A stretch of DNA of 21,338 nt from the IMG/VR virus record IMGVR_UViG_3300012009_000262, positions 1-21,338 of that record. One strand, given 5' to 3'. Shown here in pieces: positions 3,874-20,527 of this stretch. Made by a program: the position numbers and the translations under genes. Source of the DNA: a virus. The notes under the pieces are model-generated. The model did not search any database and was not told the DNA's origin. It was given only the letters and a program-made list of their open reading frames with translations. The first letter of the stretch is position 1; every line of letters starts with the position of its first letter.

Positions 3874-5208
3874 ATGAAAATTACAAAAACCTTCTCCGTA
3901 GAAAAAAAATTATATGAAAAGTTCGAACAGATTGTGTCTGATCGAAATTTAAATCGTTCCAAATTCATTGAAAGTAAAATCCGAGAATTTGTCCACAATA
4001 ATATTATTATTGATACCGATAGTTTATATTACTATAAATATGAAGATGAGTGTGAAGCTGAAAATGCTAATTCTCCTGATAGTTGTGTCTGGAAAAAGAA
4101 AACTCAAACTGACTATGTTAAGATTGTCGAAACTGAATTAAATAATGAAGGAGAACTCTTTGTTAATTTAGATGATGGTAATCGTTTGCGTTATGATTTG
4201 TTTGAAAAAGCTTATGAAATTGCCGTCGAACCGCAAAACTTTTTTACCAAAGGAGCCACTCCTATTGGAGAACAAATAAAAAATAGTTTGGAAAAGGTAG
4301 AGAAATTTAAAAAATCAGAAGATGATTTGGATAGTTTGGCAACTAGAGTTAATATAAATAATGATCCTTTTTTAGGGAGAGGACCTGAAGATTTAGAAAA
4401 CTCTGACAGAAACTTCAAAGCCGATGGTTTTTGGAATCAAAGTTGTGCTAAAACTCAAACCCAATCAGATAAACCGCAAGTCTCTGACCTATTTGAGCAA
4501 CCTTCTCTAAACGCTGATAAAATTTCGGAAGCCGTTGAACAATTTGAAGTAGAAAGTACCGTTAAATCCATTATAATTAGAGAAATCAAAGAAAATCCTG
4601 ACAATAATAAATATACTTTAGCGAAAGAAGATTTTGGATATCCTTTGACTCGGCTAGCTAACCGTTGGAAACAGAAAAAGAGTGAAACGGTGATAGGTAT
4701 GTTTCAAGATATGTTAGTTGAACATAATATCAATGCCAGTAATAAATATCCTTTTGAAGCGGAATATCTTGATTCCGAGATTAAAATCACTACCCCTGAA
4801 AGCTCTGAATATTTTCTAATTATAATTCAAGTGGGGTATAAGAAAGATATTTCACTAGATAATGATGGTAAATCTAATACGGTGGCCGCTAAAATTGTTT
4901 TTGAAACAGATGATTTATCTAATCAAGAATTTTATGTTTATAGTACAGAACCTAAACAATTAGTCTTTATGTTGGAAGCTTATTTAGAATATTTCCGCCA
5001 AAAGATTCACCTAACATTAGATTCGACATTGGAAGTTCTTATTCCTTCGGAATCAATGGATAAAGAATATAAAAATGAAAATATATCGGAAGTCAGTTAT
5101 GGCACGCTATATAAAAATACTAAAATTGGCATTAATGATCTTAGCGAAGTGAAAGATCTCTTAGAAAATATTAAAGATGATTTAACTAATGAAGACGATA
5201 TTAATTAG
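3874..5208 (+). CDS. Ribbon-helix-helix N-terminus with large unknown C-terminal region
   Basis: 444 residues. Residues about 1-45 look like a ribbon-helix-helix DNA-binding fold: a short strand (K-I-T-K-T-F-S-V), a helix containing K-K-L-Y-E-K-F-E-Q-I-V, a turn (N-L-N-R-S-K-F-I) and a second helix, typical of Arc/CopG-type proteins that dimerise and insert a beta ribbon into the major groove. The remainder is acidic. A probably disordered middle spans about 110-230, and a C-terminal globular region (about 235-420) is unlike families I know. The last 20 nt overlap the start of the gp47-like gene, so the two are coupled. The size, about five times that of a plain RHH repressor, suggests a DNA-bound scaffold or replication/recombination accessory rather than a simple regulator; that is inference. 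Confidence 0.75.
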   Translation: MKITKTFSVEKKLYEKFEQIVSDRNLNRSKFIESKIREFVHNNIIIDTDSLYYYKYEDECEAENANSPDSCVWKKKTQTDYVKIVETELNNEGELFVNLDDGNRLRYDLFEKAYEIAVEPQNFFTKGATPIGEQIKNSLEKVEKFKKSEDDLDSLATRVNINNDPFLGRGPEDLENSDRNFKADGFWNQSCAKTQTQSDKPQVSDLFEQPSLNADKISEAVEQFEVESTVKSIIIREIKENPDNNKYTLAKEDFGYPLTRLANRWKQKKSETVIGMFQDMLVEHNINASNKYPFEAEYLDSEIKITTPESSEYFLIIIQVGYKKDISLDNDGKSNTVAAKIVFETDDLSNQEFYVYSTEPKQLVFMLEAYLEYFRQKIHLTLDSTLEVLIPSESMDKEYKNENISEVSYGTLYKNTKIGINDLSEVKDLLENIKDDLTNEDDIN

Positions 5209-6106
5209 TAATACTTTATTTGGTTATAAGAATAATAATCTAGAATGGTTGAAAATAATGGCTAATTATTTCAACCATTCTTTTATTCCTTATTTAAAAA
5301 ATAATGATATTGATCAAGTTATTCATGCGGGTAATCTTTTTGTCAACACTAATCTTAATATTCAAACACTTAATTTAGTTCAAGATTTATTCACTAAAAT
5401 TACTCAACATTGTAATTTGAAGTTAATGGTAGGACACAAAGATCGGATTCGAAAGAATAGTATCAATGCTTTTAATATTTTCAAAGGCTTAACTAATATT
5501 GAAATTATTACTCAACCTCAACAAGAAGGTCTTATTTCTTATTTACCTTATAGTAAAAATATTGCGACTCAAATTACAGAGTATGAAAATCAATACCTAG
5601 TTTTAAATAACCAAATAGAGGTTAGTGAACAAACTATTTTTAATGGTTATTTCCTTCAACACCAAATTAAAGACCAACAATATTTTATTGGAGCACCTTA
5701 TTCTCTAAACTATAACCACCAAGGTGGATTTTTAGTTCTAGATTCAAAGACAAATAAAATTGAATATGTATTAAATGAATATAGTCCTCAATATGTGATA
5801 CTATCTCTCCGAACAGAGCAAGACTTAGATAATTTAGATCCAGTTTTTTTAGGTCAAAATTTTGTCAAATTAGAAATTGACAAAAAATTGTGGGAAAATT
5901 TAGGCACTAAACTAAGAGTGGTTTTAGCTCAATATCCTGTGGAAGAAGTTACTTACCAAGAAGAAGAAAAACCTAAACTTTTACCCGACACTGAAGAACT
6001 TCATTTAGAAGAAATGGTTCGAAAACATATTACTCAAAATAATAATCCCAACCTTATAACTGAATTTGAACATATTTTAAACCTTTACCATAGGAAAATT
6101 TCCTAG
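5189..6106 (+). CDS. gp47/SbcD-like metallophosphatase homologue with degenerate active site
   Basis: 305 residues with the order of elements of the T4 gp47/SbcD/Mre11 nuclease subunit, the partner of the gp46/SbcC ATPase in double-strand-end processing. The framework is clear: I-L-I-S-x-x-x-x-G at 4-12, A-G-x-L-F at 47-51, V-G-x-x-D at 81-85, then G-Y-F-L at 153-156 followed by the strand pattern Y-F-I-G-A-P-Y-S-L. The canonical ligands are replaced: Asn8 for Asp, Leu10 for His, Asn49 for Asp, His83 for Asn, Lys84 for His, and G-Y-F-L for G-H-x-H. Only Asp85 of the G-N-H-D block remains. It is therefore probably catalytically dead or altered, acting as a structural subunit. No gp46 gene follows. 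It overlaps the upstream RHH gene by 20 nt. Confidence 0.65.
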   Translation: MKTILISNTLFGYKNNNLEWLKIMANYFNHSFIPYLKNNDIDQVIHAGNLFVNTNLNIQTLNLVQDLFTKITQHCNLKLMVGHKDRIRKNSINAFNIFKGLTNIEIITQPQQEGLISYLPYSKNIATQITEYENQYLVLNNQIEVSEQTIFNGYFLQHQIKDQQYFIGAPYSLNYNHQGGFLVLDSKTNKIEYVLNEYSPQYVILSLRTEQDLDNLDPVFLGQNFVKLEIDKKLWENLGTKLRVVLAQYPVEEVTYQEEEKPKLLPDTEELHLEEMVRKHITQNNNPNLITEFEHILNLYHRKIS

Positions 6107-6159: not shown

Positions 6160-6639
6160 TTATCGGTAAGTACTAAAAATTTGTTGTGACTTTTGTCCCA
6201 AAGGAATTAAAGCTTGTTTATTAATTTTTTCGAACATTTCTACGGAAACCACTTCCACTTCTTGGAAATTACCTGTAGGTTGCGGATCAGTTAATGTTGG
6301 AGTTGATTGAGTTCTGACTACTTCATTTAAGTTCTCTTCCGCTAAATATTGGTTTAAGCCATTAGGATCTAAATCTTTTTTCTTTTTCCGAATTGGATTT
6401 TGATTATGAGAATTTTGAACCACTCCATTAATGCGGGTTTCAAATTCTACATAATTAGGATCCCAACCATCATTCACATTTTCTTGAATTTGGTATGATG
6501 AAACATCAGGAGTTTCATTCAAAGAAGGTAAATCACCGTATTGGGGGGTTTCATTCAAAGGTTTTAATTCCTCTTCTTCTTTGTTTTCTTGAATATTGCG
6601 GAATAAATTTAAATAATCTTCATTTAATTGTTCAGACAT
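6160..6639 (-). CDS. Acidic, largely disordered protein of unknown function
   Basis: 159 residues that I do not recognise, low in hydrophobic core residues and rich in Glu, Asn, Gln and Pro. A repeated phrase (L-N-E-T-P) occurs near residues 28 and 40, and an R-K-K-K-K patch lies near 84-88. The first residues contain Q-L-N-E and then L-F-R-N-I-Q-E, both matching the [LI]-x-E cleavage pattern of T4-type prohead proteases; this fits the idea of a packaged, processed internal or scaffold-like protein but is not proof. It is the last gene of the leftward block, with its own TATATATA element 22 nt upstream and an AAAGGA just before the start, unusual here. Its 3' end converges on the gp47-like gene with about 50 nt between. 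Confidence 0.65.
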   Translation of the reverse strand: MSEQLNEDYLNLFRNIQENKEEEELKPLNETPQYGDLPSLNETPDVSSYQIQENVNDGWDPNYVEFETRINGVVQNSHNQNPIRKKKKDLDPNGLNQYLAEENLNEVVRTQSTPTLTDPQPTGNFQEVEVVSVEMFEKINKQALIPLGQKSQQIFSTYR

Positions 6640-6686: not shown

Positions 6687-7802
6687 TTAATCATAAGGTT
6701 GAAATTTTCTTATAGCTAAGGATTTTCTTTTTCTTCTATTTTTATTTACCAATTTTGGTTTTTTGAGTGGTGAAATTTCATGTGGTATACGAGGAGGGTT
6801 TAGATATTCCTGACTACCATATTTAGCCAAAGGAATAAACTTACTAGGTTTGTTATGGTTTTCAAAAATTTCTACTAAATATTCATTACCTTCAATTTTA
6901 ATTTTCAATTTTCGTTCCAATTCTTTCACAATAATTTTTAACATTGTTGGGCTAGGATAATCCCAAAAACCTATGATATGGTTTTTAGTCCAAATTCGAC
7001 CATCATAACGAGAAACTCCATATTCAAAATTTAACATATCTTCATGTTTACCACCCCAATGACCAATTTCTAAATGGGGTTCTATTGTTTCTCCTAGTTG
7101 AAAATATTTTTCATAGCCTGTAATCCAAGCAAAAGGAATGGCTTCTGAATCTTGATAGGTTAATTTTTTACCCCAAGGGGTAATTATTTGATTAATATCT
7201 TCGCTTAAAAAATCAGTATAATTAAGGATTAACTTCTCTTGTCTGATCCGCTGCTTCCAAACTGGAGTTATATCTTTAAAATTTTTTATGACTTTCTTTT
7301 TCTTTTTTAAAAGAGGTGATTTTTCATGCTCAGTTGGTTCGGGATCTACGGGTTGGGGTAAATAAGTTGAAAGAGGAACAAACTCAGAATTTAAATCTGA
7401 AGGTTTGTTGAAAACTTCTATTACCCAATCTGAATCATCAAAATCTACTTCATAATCCGTCTTTAATAAAACAGCTTCTTCAATATCTTCCAAAACTTTT
7501 TGGATCTTATTTTGAGGTGGATGTTCCCAAAAAGAAATTACTTTAGAATCTACCCATAATCGACCCGGGTAATCGAAACCAATTCTACCTTTTCGATCAT
7601 CTACAAAATTATGAGCATCTTGTTCAAACACTATCATTTCATAACGAGCTTCTTCAGGATCATCTTCAGGATCGTCGATAAGAACATAATTATTCGTCCA
7701 ATGGTAACCAAAACCAATGGCCTCAATATCCTCCCAAGTGAGAGGTTTATCTTGATAATTGGTATAATCCGCATTTTCATGTAATTTGTTCCAAATTGAC
7801 AT
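6687..7802 (-). CDS. Two-domain repeat protein (GR-[LI]-W / FW-[ED]-x-P domain), unknown function
   Basis: 371 residues built from two diverged copies of one domain I cannot name, at about 22-145 and about 215-345. Each copy has an E-A-I-G/P-F start, then G-R-L/I-W, then I-S/G-F-W-E/D-H/Y-P, a long amphipathic helix, a strand ending V/I-E-V/I-F, and a short end motif (F-[VI]-P-L-x-x-Y). A third copy is the 201-aa protein at 19922. Copy 1 is preceded by W-N-K-L-H-E and copy 2 by N-Y-T-D-F-L-S-E, a motif like the T4 capsid-targeting/protease site, so cleavage between the domains is possible. A K-K-K-K-K run precedes the second unit and the C-terminus is basic (N-R-R-K-R-K). The start overlaps the upstream 234-aa gene by 26 nt. 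Confidence 0.8.
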   Translation of the reverse strand: MSIWNKLHENADYTNYQDKPLTWEDIEAIGFGYHWTNNYVLIDDPEDDPEEARYEMIVFEQDAHNFVDDRKGRIGFDYPGRLWVDSKVISFWEHPPQNKIQKVLEDIEEAVLLKTDYEVDFDDSDWVIEVFNKPSDLNSEFVPLSTYLPQPVDPEPTEHEKSPLLKKKKKVIKNFKDITPVWKQRIRQEKLILNYTDFLSEDINQIITPWGKKLTYQDSEAIPFAWITGYEKYFQLGETIEPHLEIGHWGGKHEDMLNFEYGVSRYDGRIWTKNHIIGFWDYPSPTMLKIIVKELERKLKIKIEGNEYLVEIFENHNKPSKFIPLAKYGSQEYLNPPRIPHEISPLKKPKLVNKNRRKRKSLAIRKFQPYD

Positions 7803-8550: not shown

Positions 8551-9549
8551 TTATTCTTCATCATCCATGAAGAAATCATCTTCCGTCATTTCTACATTAT
8601 CTGGTTCATCGTCTAAAGAATCATCTACACTTTCGATCATATCATTAGAAGCGTTTTTAGCTTTTCTCTCTGCACCGGTAATATCTTGACCATTTAGAAT
8701 GGCTATGATATCATCTATTTTACCTTTAGTTTCTTCGCTCCAAGATACAGCTTCATATTTAGATAAATCAACAGCTTCATCTCGTTCAGTTAAAAAAGTT
8801 TTAATTTTCTTTTGAGCTTTAGCTTCTACTTTCCCTTCATTTACTGGGATAGGCACAAATTTCTTATTCTTTTCATTGTAAAGTTTAAGAGGTGAAGAGT
8901 CTTTAAAAGAAGAAGCGTCATAATTGGCATAGCCTGCTTTATCTTTAATGATAAGTACGAAATCTTTACCATTTACTAAATCATAAACATTACAAGGTTC
9001 ACCTGAAATTTCACCATTTCTTTCACTATTAATTTTCTCTTTAATGGTATAACCAAAAGGAAAAACTAAAATTTTACCTACTAAATCTGGTTTTTGTTCG
9101 TCTTCCAGAACTAAAACATAAGAATAATATTTAGTTTGACGAGAAATTAAATCAGATTTTTCAACGTCGGCTTGATTTTTACTATTTTTCAACTTCCAAA
9201 AAGTAGTGCAAAGTTCACATTTATTTTCTTCGAAGTTTTTACCACAGTCATAGTAGCCTGATAAATTAGCGTGACTTTTAAAATCAGCATAATGAATATG
9301 TTTTTCAATAGCTAACGGTCCTAATTTACCTGTTTCTAATACGTTAGGGAGAAAACGAATTACCGAACGGTAACCGGTTTTTCTGTCTTTCGCATCCTCT
9401 AGACGAGGACGATAAATACCATCCAAATTGGTGGTTTTTTTGTCAAATACACTAAGAGATTCCTCAGTGTCCATGTTAAATAAATCAACATTTTCTAATT
9501 CTTCCATGCTTTTAAAGCTTGTTTTTTGATGAGGCTTATTAAGTCTCAT
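8551..9549 (-). CDS. gp32-like single-stranded DNA-binding protein
   Basis: 332 residues with the plan of T4 gp32, the replisome and recombination SSB. A short basic N-terminus, which in gp32 mediates cooperativity, precedes an OB-type core carrying R-S-V-I-R-F-L-P-N (61-69). The zinc site has Cys102, Cys111 and Cys114 (C-x8-C-x2-C), with His84, His86 or His93 as the fourth ligand, matching H-C-C-C in gp32. Core strands around Y-S-Y-V-L-V and the later G-Y-A-N-Y-D segment also match gp32. The C-terminus (about 305-332) is almost entirely Asp/Glu, the usual protein-interaction tail. It is a monocistronic leftward gene with a terminator just after it. Its leader carries an 18-bp palindrome, which may matter because T4 gp32 represses its own mRNA. 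Confidence 0.9.
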   Translation of the reverse strand: MRLNKPHQKTSFKSMEELENVDLFNMDTEESLSVFDKKTTNLDGIYRPRLEDAKDRKTGYRSVIRFLPNVLETGKLGPLAIEKHIHYADFKSHANLSGYYDCGKNFEENKCELCTTFWKLKNSKNQADVEKSDLISRQTKYYSYVLVLEDEQKPDLVGKILVFPFGYTIKEKINSERNGEISGEPCNVYDLVNGKDFVLIIKDKAGYANYDASSFKDSSPLKLYNEKNKKFVPIPVNEGKVEAKAQKKIKTFLTERDEAVDLSKYEAVSWSEETKGKIDDIIAILNGQDITGAERKAKNASNDMIESVDDSLDDEPDNVEMTEDDFFMDDEE

Positions 9550-9865: not shown

Positions 9866-12766
9866 ATGGCTTTGAAAAGAACGATTGCTAATAATCAAGT
9901 AATCGTTAATCTCCCCACTGCTTATCAAGAAGCAGGTACTCGTAATAGTAGTTTGCTCATTAATAACTATGAGGACGAAAATGGTTACCTTGCTATTTTT
10001 ACGGAATTAGATACTCATCTTATGAAAGGGGATCGAGTTTTTATTTCTTCTCTGTCTTCCGTAACCACCTTAGATAACTATTTAACTTATTTTGAAAAAG
10101 ATAATTATCCTTTTACCCGTTATAATATGGGTTATGAGGTTTTAAATATAGATTTAGAACAAAATAAAGTAGTGTTGGATATTTTAATAGTTGAATTAGA
10201 GGATTCTTTCAATCTAATCGGAAGTTACTTAACTAAAATTAGAGGGGAAAAAGTTAATGTTAGTAATAGTGAAATTGATTCGGTTTTCTTCAAAGAAGGA
10301 ATATTTAAAAACAATCAATATAAACAAAGTATTATTATTGAAGGTCAAGTAACGGGTGGTACTTATCTTTCTAAATATAATTTTGATTATCAATCCTTAA
10401 AAAGAAATGAGGAGGAAATTATTTTCAATCAGAACAATGATAGTTATGGTTATAATTATTTAGGCAACCGTTTAGCTTTAGATGAAACGGCTTATGATTT
10501 ATTTTTGAATATTACTAGTGCTACTACTTCTACTAATGATAATACTGTAGATAGTGATCCTTGGCATCTTTATGATAATAGTAGTACCAATTATTGGAAA
10601 AGTAATGGTGTAACTCCTCAATGGGTAACATGGTCTTTCGAAAAAGCTTTAACTTTAATTGGTTTGACCGTTTATTGTTTTAGTGATGATAATATCGGTA
10701 ATATCGGTTTACCTAATGATCTTGATATTCAAGGTTGGAATGGTTCCAATTGGAATACTATTACGGGTTTTACCAATATTTGGGTGGGTTCTGGTTCGGC
10801 TAATGAACAAAATTTTACGTTAGAATTTGATAATAATATCACTTATAGTAAATATAGATTATATATTTACACAGGTTATATTGGAAATTCTGATACCGAA
10901 ACTAACACTGAACTTTTATTTAGAGAAGTGGTTCCTATGGTAAAAGAGTTTCCAGAAATTGGAGGTTCCTTTGGTAAAATCTTCTTTGCGGAAAATTTAT
11001 TAGATGGTAATACCGGTTTTAGTGAACGTAATATTCCTTGGGAACCTAATGATAGTTTTTTTATTACCGGTGCTGGTAAAGATTATTGGTGGGGTAGTAA
11101 TGATAATTACACTACAACTAATCGGTTTGAAATGATGAGTGATTTAGGGTTCGCTGGTGAAACTTATGATAGATATATTTTAACGTTATCTGGTTATAGT
11201 GATGGAACTGATATGTATGTTATGTTTCGAGATGGTAGTGATAATATAGCCTCTACTGACCAAACTTATACCAACTTTGGTCAATTTGAATCTCTTGATT
11301 TAACTTGTTTAGTTAATACGGACATCTACCTCATTCTAGGTGGAGATTCAATTGATAACAATGAAGTAGCCTATATGTATGGATTATTTCTCTATCAAGA
11401 AAAATTAGAATATCAACCCCTTAAATTATTTGATAAGGATTCATCCACCGAATTAATTAGTATTAACGAAACTTCTAAGGAACATACTGTAGAATTTGAT
11501 TTTCATAATCAACCTCAAATTATAACGAGCTTTAATTATCGCATTAATAATAAAATCTTTAGTAGTCCTTTTGATATTTATTCCTCCTTTAATCCTAGAG
11601 GAACTGTTTCCATAGAAGGTTATAACAATGGTTCTTGGGAAATTATTGAAAGTTTTTCTTTTGATGGTAGTGGGTTGTATAAAAATAATCTTAGTAAGGT
11701 ACAAGCTTTAAATCGTTTTAGATTAAGATTTGTTACTAATACCACTACTTTAATTTTAAGTGAAGTCGAACTTTTACGCAAAGCTAATCAAAGTGCTTAT
11801 AATGTAGAAATTGAAAATGGTAATTTTTATTTCTGTAATTTACAAGGAGAGGAAAATACTATCAGAGGCGGTTATTTTGAAAATTGTATCGTAGATAATT
11901 ATATCATTCAAGGTGGATTTTTTCTCAATTGTTATATTCAAAGTAATTGTGTCTGGGAAGGTGGTACTTTCAAAGGTTTTGGATCTTCTTTTGGACCAGA
12001 TACTTTTTATGATGGTAATTGGAATTCCGGAACTTTTTTTGATAAAACATGGGTCTCAGGTAATTTTAATGCGGGACTTTTCCTTAATTCACAATGGTTG
12101 AATGGTCGTTTCAATGGCGGTACTTTCTCAGCTTCTACTTGGGCTGACGGTTTCTTTGATGAAGGTCTATTTTTAGATTCTATGTGGAGTGCGGGTACTT
12201 TTAATTCTGGTACTTTTAATGATTCCTTTTGGATTACCGGATTATTTAATGATGGTGATGTTGATAATTCTACTATTTGGAGTGGGGGAACTTTTCGTAA
12301 TGGTCGCTTTAATCGTTCTACGTGGTATAATGGTGATTTTTGGGATGGTAGTTTTACTAATTCCGTATGGTTGGCTGGTAATTTTTACGGTGGTAATTTT
12401 AATAACTCTAATTGGACTGGGGGGACCTGGTATGACGGCACCTTCACTAATTCTAATTGGTTAAATGGAACTTGGTATAATGGTACCTTTGAAAATTCTT
12501 TCTGGGAAGATGGTTCTTGGTATAATGGTAATTTTAATAGTTCCGATTGGAAATATGGTACTTGGTATAATGGAGAATGGAATAATTCTTCTATTAATAA
12601 AGCTACCCCCACTTCTTATATTAATTGGAAATTTGGAGCCTTTAATGGGGGATATATAGATCCTGATAGTGAAGTTAATTGGAGTGGCGGTACCTGGAAT
12701 TTGGGAGAATTCGTAGCTAGAGATAATACGGATATTCGTATTATTTTTCCTAATGCTGAAATATAG
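9866..12766 (+). CDS. Large fibre/appendage protein: discoidin-like domains plus W/F-G repeats
   Basis: 966 residues with no signal peptide, consistent with a virion appendage. Domains in order: an unfamiliar N-terminal part (1-210); a discoidin (F5/8 type C)-like jelly roll at about 215-350 with Y-D-N-S-S-T-N-Y-W and a later Y-R-L-Y-I-Y strand; a further beta domain at about 355-510; a second discoidin-like domain at about 515-640 with L-F-D-K-D-S-S-T-E and F-R-L-R-F; and a C-terminal beta-helix-like part (about 650-940) made of W-x-x-G / F-x-x-G repeats. Discoidin-like domains usually bind glycans, so host-surface recognition is likely. It heads the rightward structural operon, is preceded by TATATA 21 nt upstream, and the next gene follows 7 nt later. 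Repeats sharing the W-Y-N-G motif also occur at the end of that next protein. Confidence 0.85.
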   Translation: MALKRTIANNQVIVNLPTAYQEAGTRNSSLLINNYEDENGYLAIFTELDTHLMKGDRVFISSLSSVTTLDNYLTYFEKDNYPFTRYNMGYEVLNIDLEQNKVVLDILIVELEDSFNLIGSYLTKIRGEKVNVSNSEIDSVFFKEGIFKNNQYKQSIIIEGQVTGGTYLSKYNFDYQSLKRNEEEIIFNQNNDSYGYNYLGNRLALDETAYDLFLNITSATTSTNDNTVDSDPWHLYDNSSTNYWKSNGVTPQWVTWSFEKALTLIGLTVYCFSDDNIGNIGLPNDLDIQGWNGSNWNTITGFTNIWVGSGSANEQNFTLEFDNNITYSKYRLYIYTGYIGNSDTETNTELLFREVVPMVKEFPEIGGSFGKIFFAENLLDGNTGFSERNIPWEPNDSFFITGAGKDYWWGSNDNYTTTNRFEMMSDLGFAGETYDRYILTLSGYSDGTDMYVMFRDGSDNIASTDQTYTNFGQFESLDLTCLVNTDIYLILGGDSIDNNEVAYMYGLFLYQEKLEYQPLKLFDKDSSTELISINETSKEHTVEFDFHNQPQIITSFNYRINNKIFSSPFDIYSSFNPRGTVSIEGYNNGSWEIIESFSFDGSGLYKNNLSKVQALNRFRLRFVTNTTTLILSEVELLRKANQSAYNVEIENGNFYFCNLQGEENTIRGGYFENCIVDNYIIQGGFFLNCYIQSNCVWEGGTFKGFGSSFGPDTFYDGNWNSGTFFDKTWVSGNFNAGLFLNSQWLNGRFNGGTFSASTWADGFFDEGLFLDSMWSAGTFNSGTFNDSFWITGLFNDGDVDNSTIWSGGTFRNGRFNRSTWYNGDFWDGSFTNSVWLAGNFYGGNFNNSNWTGGTWYDGTFTNSNWLNGTWYNGTFENSFWEDGSWYNGNFNSSDWKYGTWYNGEWNNSSINKATPTSYINWKFGAFNGGYIDPDSEVNWSGGTWNLGEFVARDNTDIRIIFPNAEI
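12050..12592 (+). repeat. Twelve 45-bp coding repeats (15-residue W-x-x-G-x-F-x-x-G units)
   Basis: Residues 729-909 of the 966-aa protein form twelve consecutive units, all 15 residues except the fifth (16). Each starts with Trp (729, 744, 759, 774, 789, 805, 820, 835, 850, 865, 880, 895) and follows W-x-x-G-x-[FW]-x-x-G-x-[FW]-x-x-S-x. This equals three pentapeptides per unit with an aromatic at each central position, resembling pentapeptide-repeat right-handed beta helices but with Trp/Phe in place of Leu/Phe. Looser repeats extend back to about 11870. Confidence 0.9.
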
Positions 12767-19921: not shown

Positions 19922-20527
19922 ATGGCTTGTGATCAGTTATATTATGAGGGTAAGGTCATACCTTATAATAATACTTCAGGTATTATTCCTTTTGCTTATT
20001 CTTGGGTTGAAAACCATTATGAAATAGGTTTGGGAGAAGATAGTTTTTCGCATAGTACTATTCCTTTCAAATATCAAACTTCAGCCTTTAAAAATGGTCG
20101 TTTGTGGATACCTTTTAAAATTTTAACTTTTTGGGAATATCCTTTACCTGCTCGTTGGTCTCGTTTTTTAGAAGAATTGACAACGATTTTAAATGAGGAA
20201 TATCCTGAATTTGAAATAGATTTTCAAGATCCGACCTGGCGAGTAGAAGTTAAAATTGAAAATGATGAAGGTCCAGCTTATCCTAATAAGATTCCCACCG
20301 AAAAAATTTCTGATACCGAAGACTATAAATTAATTCCTTTCCGTTATTATCGTGGTAGTAATTTAGACGTTTTAGCTCGCTTAAGACATTTAGCCTCTCA
20401 AAAAGATAAAGAAGCTTTAAAAAAATTAGGCTATTTAAAAAAAACTAACCACTCTAAAAATATAAAATGGCGTCAACGTCTCTCTCAAGAGAAATATATT
20501 TTAAATTTTAAATCCTTTCTAAAATAG
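19922..20527 (+). CDS. Single-domain paralogue of the 371-aa protein (GR-[LI]-W / FW-[ED]-x-P domain)
   Basis: 201 residues. It contains one copy of the unrecognised domain found twice in the 371-aa protein at 7802-6687: G-I-I-P-F-A-Y-S-W, then N-G-R-L-W, then L-T-F-W-E-Y-P, a long helix, a strand V-E-V, and K-L-I-P-F-R-Y. Its C-terminal 20 or so residues (W-R-Q-R-L-S-Q-E-K-Y-I-L-N-F-K-S-F-L-K) match the linker that joins the two domains of the larger protein (W-K-Q-R-I-R-Q-E-K-L-I-L-N-Y-T-D-F-L-S-E) but stop where that motif ends. It therefore looks like the first half of a two-domain protein whose second half was lost. A terminator follows at once. Confidence 0.8.
   Translation: MACDQLYYEGKVIPYNNTSGIIPFAYSWVENHYEIGLGEDSFSHSTIPFKYQTSAFKNGRLWIPFKILTFWEYPLPARWSRFLEELTTILNEEYPEFEIDFQDPTWRVEVKIENDEGPAYPNKIPTEKISDTEDYKLIPFRYYRGSNLDVLARLRHLASQKDKEALKKLGYLKKTNHSKNIKWRQRLSQEKYILNFKSFLK

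Follow-up and report, generated by a model that had tools for sequence, protein, structure and literature searches.

A conserved clade of phage gp47/SbcD/Mre11 homologs that has lost the metal-binding active site

A gp47 homolog with its active-site motifs replaced

The window, the whole stretch of viral DNA that was analysed (21,338 nt, IMG/VR record IMGVR_UViG_3300012009_000262), carries at 5189–6106 on the plus strand an open reading frame of 305 aa without an internal stop, which overlaps the frame upstream by 20 nt. The features discussed here are as follows.

3874–5208, plus strand: 444-aa protein, its N-terminal part giving a weak RHH-like match; a neighbour that lies outside the finding and shares the 20-nt overlap with pseudo-gp47
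5189–6106, plus strand: gp47/SbcD/Mre11 homolog, predicted to be nuclease-dead (pseudo-gp47), 305 aa; PHROG 100, AlphaFold2, VIA-align and a clade of 11
5204–5227, plus strand: motif I remnant, residues 6–13, ISNTLFGY (intact: ITDTHFGx), with D8 to N and H10 to L; alignments, N8 in 11 of 11 clade members
5327–5350, plus strand: motif II remnant, residues 47–54, AGNLFVNT (intact: LGDxFDNR), with D49 to N, D52 to V and R54 to T; alignments, N49 in 11 of 11
5432–5443, plus strand: motif III remnant, residues 82–85, GHKD (intact: GNHD); alignment
5603–5629, plus strand: motif IV region, residues 139–147, the ligand His is substituted and the loop after it is shorter by about 22 residues; alignment
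5645–5656, plus strand: motif V remnant, residues 153–156, GYFL (intact: GHxH); alignment
5789–5962, plus strand: capping domain, residues 201–258; segment comparison and secondary structure of the model
5993–6100, plus strand: C-terminal helix-loop-helix, residues 269–304; model helices 269–283 and 287–304
8551–9549, minus strand: gp32-like ssDNA-binding protein (PF08804, E=4.7e-18), the marker that found relatives (18 related loci)

The product of 5189–6106 is a homolog of gp47/SbcD/Mre11. Its best PHROG match is the SbcD-like family PHROG 100 (E=2.8e-11), and a tblastn comparison pairs it with LR756502 (E=1e-19). The top public phage matches are the megaphages LR756502 (642 kb) and LR745206 (635 kb), at 25–28% identity, and the nearest intact relatives are the gp47 proteins of the LR records, to which the window protein is 25–30% identical, and of the Prevotella Lak phages. 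Pfam Metallophos gives no match to the window protein but does match the intact homolog of LR745206. Amber recoding as a source of wrong frames was rejected, as the window genes close under the standard code; readthrough of the TAG that ends the gene would add just 15 residues.

The original prediction listed D8 to N, H10 to L, D49 to N, N83 to H, H84 to K and GHxH to GYFL, and every one of these substitutions is borne out by alignment to intact relatives. Losses beyond that list are the motif IV His, which is aligned to Asn, together with about 22 loop residues, and D52 and R54 of motif II (GDxxDxR), which have become Val and Thr. The two-metal ligand set (DxH, GD, GNH, H and GHxH; motifs I–V) is absent, and the sole His or carboxylate at a ligand position of the window protein is H83, in place of N83. 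In contrast, the gp47 proteins of LR745206, LR756502, LR756500 and the Prevotella Lak phages keep the full set D-H-D-N-H-H-H-H; the ligand positions are also intact in the alignment of 80 gp47-encoding IMG/VR loci and in five annotated or megaphage references. Our comparison set of 33 intact homologs shows no variation at ten catalytic or motif positions. The window protein retains none of these (0/10) but does retain 8 of 10 other near-invariant columns, all of them Gly, Pro, Asp or Asn (Fisher p=0.0007). The loss was therefore targeted at the active site and, since the two-metal motif set is missing, we class the protein as a dead homolog and not as a gp47 nuclease. Judging from these residues, it would be expected to have no nuclease activity.

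Comparison by segment shows the same division. Identity between dead and intact proteins is 34% in helix a1, 25% in helix a2, 20% in the capping domain and 15% in the weakly conserved C-terminal helices; when intact gp47 proteins from different phage groups are compared with one another, the corresponding values are 21%, 12%, 12% and 12%. The dead proteins have thus preserved these parts at least as well. The segments of motifs III, IV and V drop to 19%, 10% and 13%, from 43%, 20% and 50% in the comparison among intact proteins.

The predicted fold is that of Mre11

An AlphaFold2 model of the window protein, built from 57 sequences, has a pLDDT of 87 and a pTM of 0.77, and comprises both the phosphoesterase core and the capping domain of an Mre11-type fold. 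Among the matches listed by Foldseek, all of the best are Mre11/SbcD. The best VIA-align match is Staphylococcus aureus SbcD (7dog, nuclease and capping domain), with a Z of 22.9 and 2.7 Å over 248 residues; Mre11/SbcD chains fill the first 39 rows of this ranking, and other phosphoesterases follow from Z 16.8. Structure prediction thus agrees with the earlier reading that the fold signature is preserved. Two C-terminal helices are predicted at residues 269–283 and 287–304. The C-terminal helix-loop-helix of Mre11 binds the Rad50 coiled coil, and on the model residues 269–304 may be the counterpart of this part of Mre11.

The loss is conserved in one clade

Searches of IMG/VR with the window protein alone, with the RHH-like protein or with the DHH protein of the window returned no relatives. 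When the neighbouring gp32-like gene was used as the query, 18 related contigs were found, 10 of which carry a gp47-like ORF of about 250–311 aa, all dead, and a profile search with the family added two further contigs with dead members. The host genome collection yielded no relatives of the dead clade. With identical proteins on overlapping or duplicate contigs counted once, the family has 11 members, the window protein and ten more.

All 11 members have open frames, and all 11 have lost the two-metal ligand set and the ten motif positions, keeping 5–8 of the 10 other near-invariant positions. Asn8 and Asn49, which stand for Asp8 and Asp49, are invariant (11/11); Leu or Lys occupies position 10, no member has kept the GNHD or GHxH motif, and the replacements at ligand positions other than 8 and 49 differ between members. 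The dead proteins span 249–314 aa, against about 344–378 aa for full-length intact homologs. The shortest, encoded on the contig G017 (249 aa), has lost about 50 more residues, with motifs IV and V altogether deleted, and is still predicted to be Mre11-like (pLDDT 85.5, Z 14.1); polymerase zeta structures are among the lower-ranked matches of its model.

The dead proteins form one clade with a support of 100/99, or 98/95 with the ten ligand columns removed. Its branches are long, that of the window protein measuring 1.67 changes per column, and neither the branching order among the members nor the position of the window protein is certain. The window gene is not a lone inactivation, as the loss is conserved in this one clade; the closest relatives found share it and are not intact, which speaks against a recent event in this copy. 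Inside sub-clades of close relatives, dN/dS is 0.07–0.24 in 8 of the 10 pairs above 60% identity, with dS saturated in the other two and synonymous sites near saturation. These values indicate purifying selection in the close pairs and, together with the invariant Asn8 and Asn49, support the earlier proposal of selection for a non-nuclease role over decay. As the window protein is without a relative close enough for the dN/dS test, the argument in its case draws on conserved columns that are shared, together with an uninterrupted frame and a fold predicted with confidence.

Gene neighbourhood

The gene neighbourhoods of dead gp47 vary between members. Around its dead gp47, G017 has NrdA, a 91-aa ORF, a 159-aa ORF, a DHH protein, gp32 and others in common with the window, and this shared content marks the window as a piece of a related phage, likewise very large. 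The 20-nt overlap with the RHH protein was described correctly from the start, but the RHH domain is a sub-threshold match to Pfam RHH_1 (E=0.011, 16.1 bits against a gathering score of 20.5; 18.0 bits for the homolog in LR756501), and the protein is not a consistent neighbour of dead gp47. We rejected it as a partner, since a homolog lies near dead gp47 only at the locus L158 and is absent from the other seven neighbourhoods.

A relative of the first window gene upstream of gp47 in LR756500 was not accepted as proof of synteny (E=0.059), and the assignment of that first gene as gp55 was rejected. A search for a replacement exonuclease gave no YqaJ/lambda-exonuclease match. A 5'-3' exonuclease (PF02739) is present in G017 and its overlapping contig G026, and a DHH-family gene in the window; both kinds of protein also occur in phages with intact gp47, and we therefore rejected them as a clade-specific replacement nuclease.

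Several other genes deserve mention in their own right. The 159-aa low-complexity protein (window 6160–6639, minus strand) adjoins dead gp47 on the other strand, and its homologs lie directly beside dead gp47 in G017 (L160 9120–9587) and G021 (L158 6504–7052), and no other gene was seen to adjoin dead gp47 in three genomes. Window genes 6687–7802 (minus strand) and 19922–20527 (plus strand) are a paralogous pair of unassigned function (about 27% identity over 219 aa, E=4e-12). The 966-aa product of 9866–12766 (plus strand) ends, over its C-terminal third, in degenerate repeats of the form W-x-x-G-x-F/W-x-x-G-x-F and is perhaps a fibre or adhesin. The NrdA homolog of G021 (L158 1371–4886) is 1171 aa long, whereas those of the window and G017 have about 845 aa, which suggests an insertion such as an intein. 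G017 also encodes 35 tRNA genes by ARAGORN (L165/L166–L183), two of which have the anticodon CTA (called Pyl) and are possible amber suppressors.

gp46 (Rad50), the presumed partner

A gp46 gene was found in both lineages of the dead clade that are represented by long contigs, G017/G026 (345 and 348 kb) and G029 (132 kb). In these phages the Walker A, zinc-hook CPxC, signature and Walker B motifs of gp46 are readable. No gp46 was found in the shorter dead-clade fragments or in the 21-kb window record, itself a fragment. G017 and G026 are 100% identical in the overlapping stretches compared; the pair was expected to form a circle but does not close, so that their union is about 434 kb of sequence and not a closed genome. 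Within it the gp47 profiles detect only the dead copy and no second gp47. In the other related records searched, one gp47-like gene each was likewise found, intact in LR756502, LR745206 and LR756500; LR756501 has in its place a gp47-gp46 fusion and a 262-aa phosphoesterase match.

That gp46 is not next to the window gene had been pointed out earlier. The observation is true but uninformative, and we rejected it as evidence for a new role, because gp46 also lies far from gp47 in megaphages where gp47 is intact (about 128 kb in LR745206 and about 136 kb in LR756502).

Two gp46 genes have an unusual organization. In the 735-kb phage LR756501.1, a 1202-aa ORF (L203 726–4334, minus strand) reads as a gp47-gp46 (Mre11-Rad50) fusion, in which N-terminal phosphoesterase motifs are followed by Walker A, CxxC and Walker B, and the GHxH-like motif is GDIH; Mre11/Rad50 fusions are known from Mimivirus (PMC3175470). 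The gp46 of G017 (L165 5152–8577; G017 about 85,150–88,576) is interrupted within Walker A, where an apparent split intein separates the Lys from the Ser. Its N part ends GKNGSGK-CVSPDT and its C part ends FRTHN-SS, and a separate endonuclease-like ORF lies between the halves.

A probable structural partner without a nuclease

We think it probable that dead gp47 descends from an ordinary phage recombination nuclease subunit and is kept in very large phages, catalytically dead, as a structural partner of gp46. Dead gp47 would still bind gp46, with its capping domain and C-terminal helices holding the ATPase heads and the base of the coiled coil, and the complex, controlled by ATP, would be able to bind DNA ends, clamp them or tether them, and would thereby feed recombination-dependent replication (UvsX, gp32). 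Cutting would be delegated to other nucleases, a step that we leave conditional because the PF02739 exonuclease and the DHH gene also occur with intact gp47. The more specific proposal, that gp46 with its intact ATPase motifs and dead gp47 form a natural nuclease-free Mre11-Rad50 complex acting as an ATP-driven DNA-end clamp or tether, seems to us evenly balanced between true and false.

Position 49 of the window protein is presumably that of Asp56 in yeast Mre11. The yeast allele mre11-D56N is known to be nuclease-dead (PMC12453631), and the nuclease-deficient E. coli SbcCD-H84Q shows an ATPase lowered by only about 15% (PMC6265447). With about 85% of the ATPase retained in that mutant, ATP-driven DNA handling can evidently survive without cutting. 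Counting against a scaffold are the C-terminal part, whose conservation (15% identity) is no higher than distant gp47s would be expected to show, and the co-occurrence of gp46 with dead gp47 in two lineages only (G017/G026 and G029); the further loss of about 50 residues in G017 means that the requirement may be loose.

The alternative that fares best, and which we still consider unlikely, is that the protein no longer belongs to the gp46 complex. It might instead be, for example, a decoy that binds and poisons host SbcC (Rad50), thereby blocking host SbcCD, or an accessory subunit of some other DNA enzyme. Inhibition of host Mre11-Rad50 by phages is known, as with N15 TelN (PMC12624138), and the inactive calcineurin-fold B subunits of eukaryotic DNA polymerases offer a precedent (PMC4996933), to which may be added the polymerase zeta structures among the matches of the G017 model and the differing neighbourhoods of dead gp47. 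Against it, gp46 is retained in both long-contig lineages, about 434 kb from one of them showed no gp47 besides the dead copy, the Mre11-specific capping domain is retained, and Mre11/SbcD ranks far above other phosphoesterases (Z 22.9 versus 16.8). It is decidedly improbable that the window phage has an intact gp47 elsewhere and that the dead copy is a divergent paralog: the window spans only 21 kb of its genome, which leaves room for one, but LR756502, LR745206, LR756500 and G017/G026 each have a single gp47-like gene per record, LR756501 departing from this with its fusion and 262-aa match.

Still less credible is DNA cutting through a rebuilt metal site, formed for instance by the invariant Asn8 and Asn49 and clade-specific residues. 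The constancy of these two Asn (11/11) could point to a pocket that still binds something, but the ligand positions of the window protein offer no carboxylate or His save H83, the motif IV His is deleted, G017 lacks motifs IV and V wholly, and the replacements at the other ligand positions vary between members. A decaying pseudogene, which the loss of all catalytic residues and the long window branch (1.67 changes per column) might evoke, is very improbable given the open frames in 11/11, dN/dS of 0.07–0.24 in close pairs where it could be estimated, the invariant Asn at two former ligand positions and the confident predicted fold.

Relation to known systems and significance

Like gp47 of T4 and T4-like phages (PHROG 100), to which it is homologous over the whole length, dead gp47 has a phosphoesterase core, a capping domain and predicted C-terminal helices; unlike them it is shorter, has all metal ligands and catalytic residues replaced and has the motif IV loop deleted. 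The predicted structure of the window protein likewise matches E. coli SbcD and archaeal Mre11 (7dog, 4lty, 3auz, 1ii7) with Z of 20–23 over about 250 residues, but at 13–16% identity and without their metal site. The B subunits of eukaryotic DNA polymerases went through the same kind of change, a phosphoesterase fold like that of Mre11 giving up its metals and turning into a structural subunit (PMC4996933); they belong to another family with another partner, whereas dead gp47 retains the Mre11 capping domain and predicted C-terminal helices. In yeast mre11-D56N and H125N (PMC12453631) and E. coli SbcD-H84Q (PMC6265447), nuclease activity is likewise lost through replacement at the metal site, but these are engineered single changes in the laboratory, while in dead gp47 the whole site disappeared naturally and a clade has conserved this state. 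The literature searched, which covers few subscription papers, gave no account of dead gp47/SbcD as a natural clade. Inactive calcineurin-fold subunits and laboratory nuclease-dead Mre11 alleles were already known; what appears to be new here is a natural, conserved clade of dead gp47.

A review of jumbo phages describes the SbcC/SbcD pair as practically universal, with SbcD as the nuclease partner (PMC7824862). For the dead clade, gp47 is probably misannotated where it is labelled a nuclease.

Few machines that act on DNA breaks are conserved as widely as Mre11-Rad50, and the separability of its nuclease from its structural, ATP-driven roles has been approached mainly via engineered mutants. 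Dead gp47 beside a kept ATPase partner in two long-contig lineages suggests an Mre11-Rad50 machine that handles DNA without cutting it. A clade without the nuclease site, with a selected partner fold and with gp46 on its long contigs, is a natural separation-of-function experiment; if the clamp or tether reading is true, the structural and cutting roles of the Mre11-Rad50 complex would have been separated in these phages.
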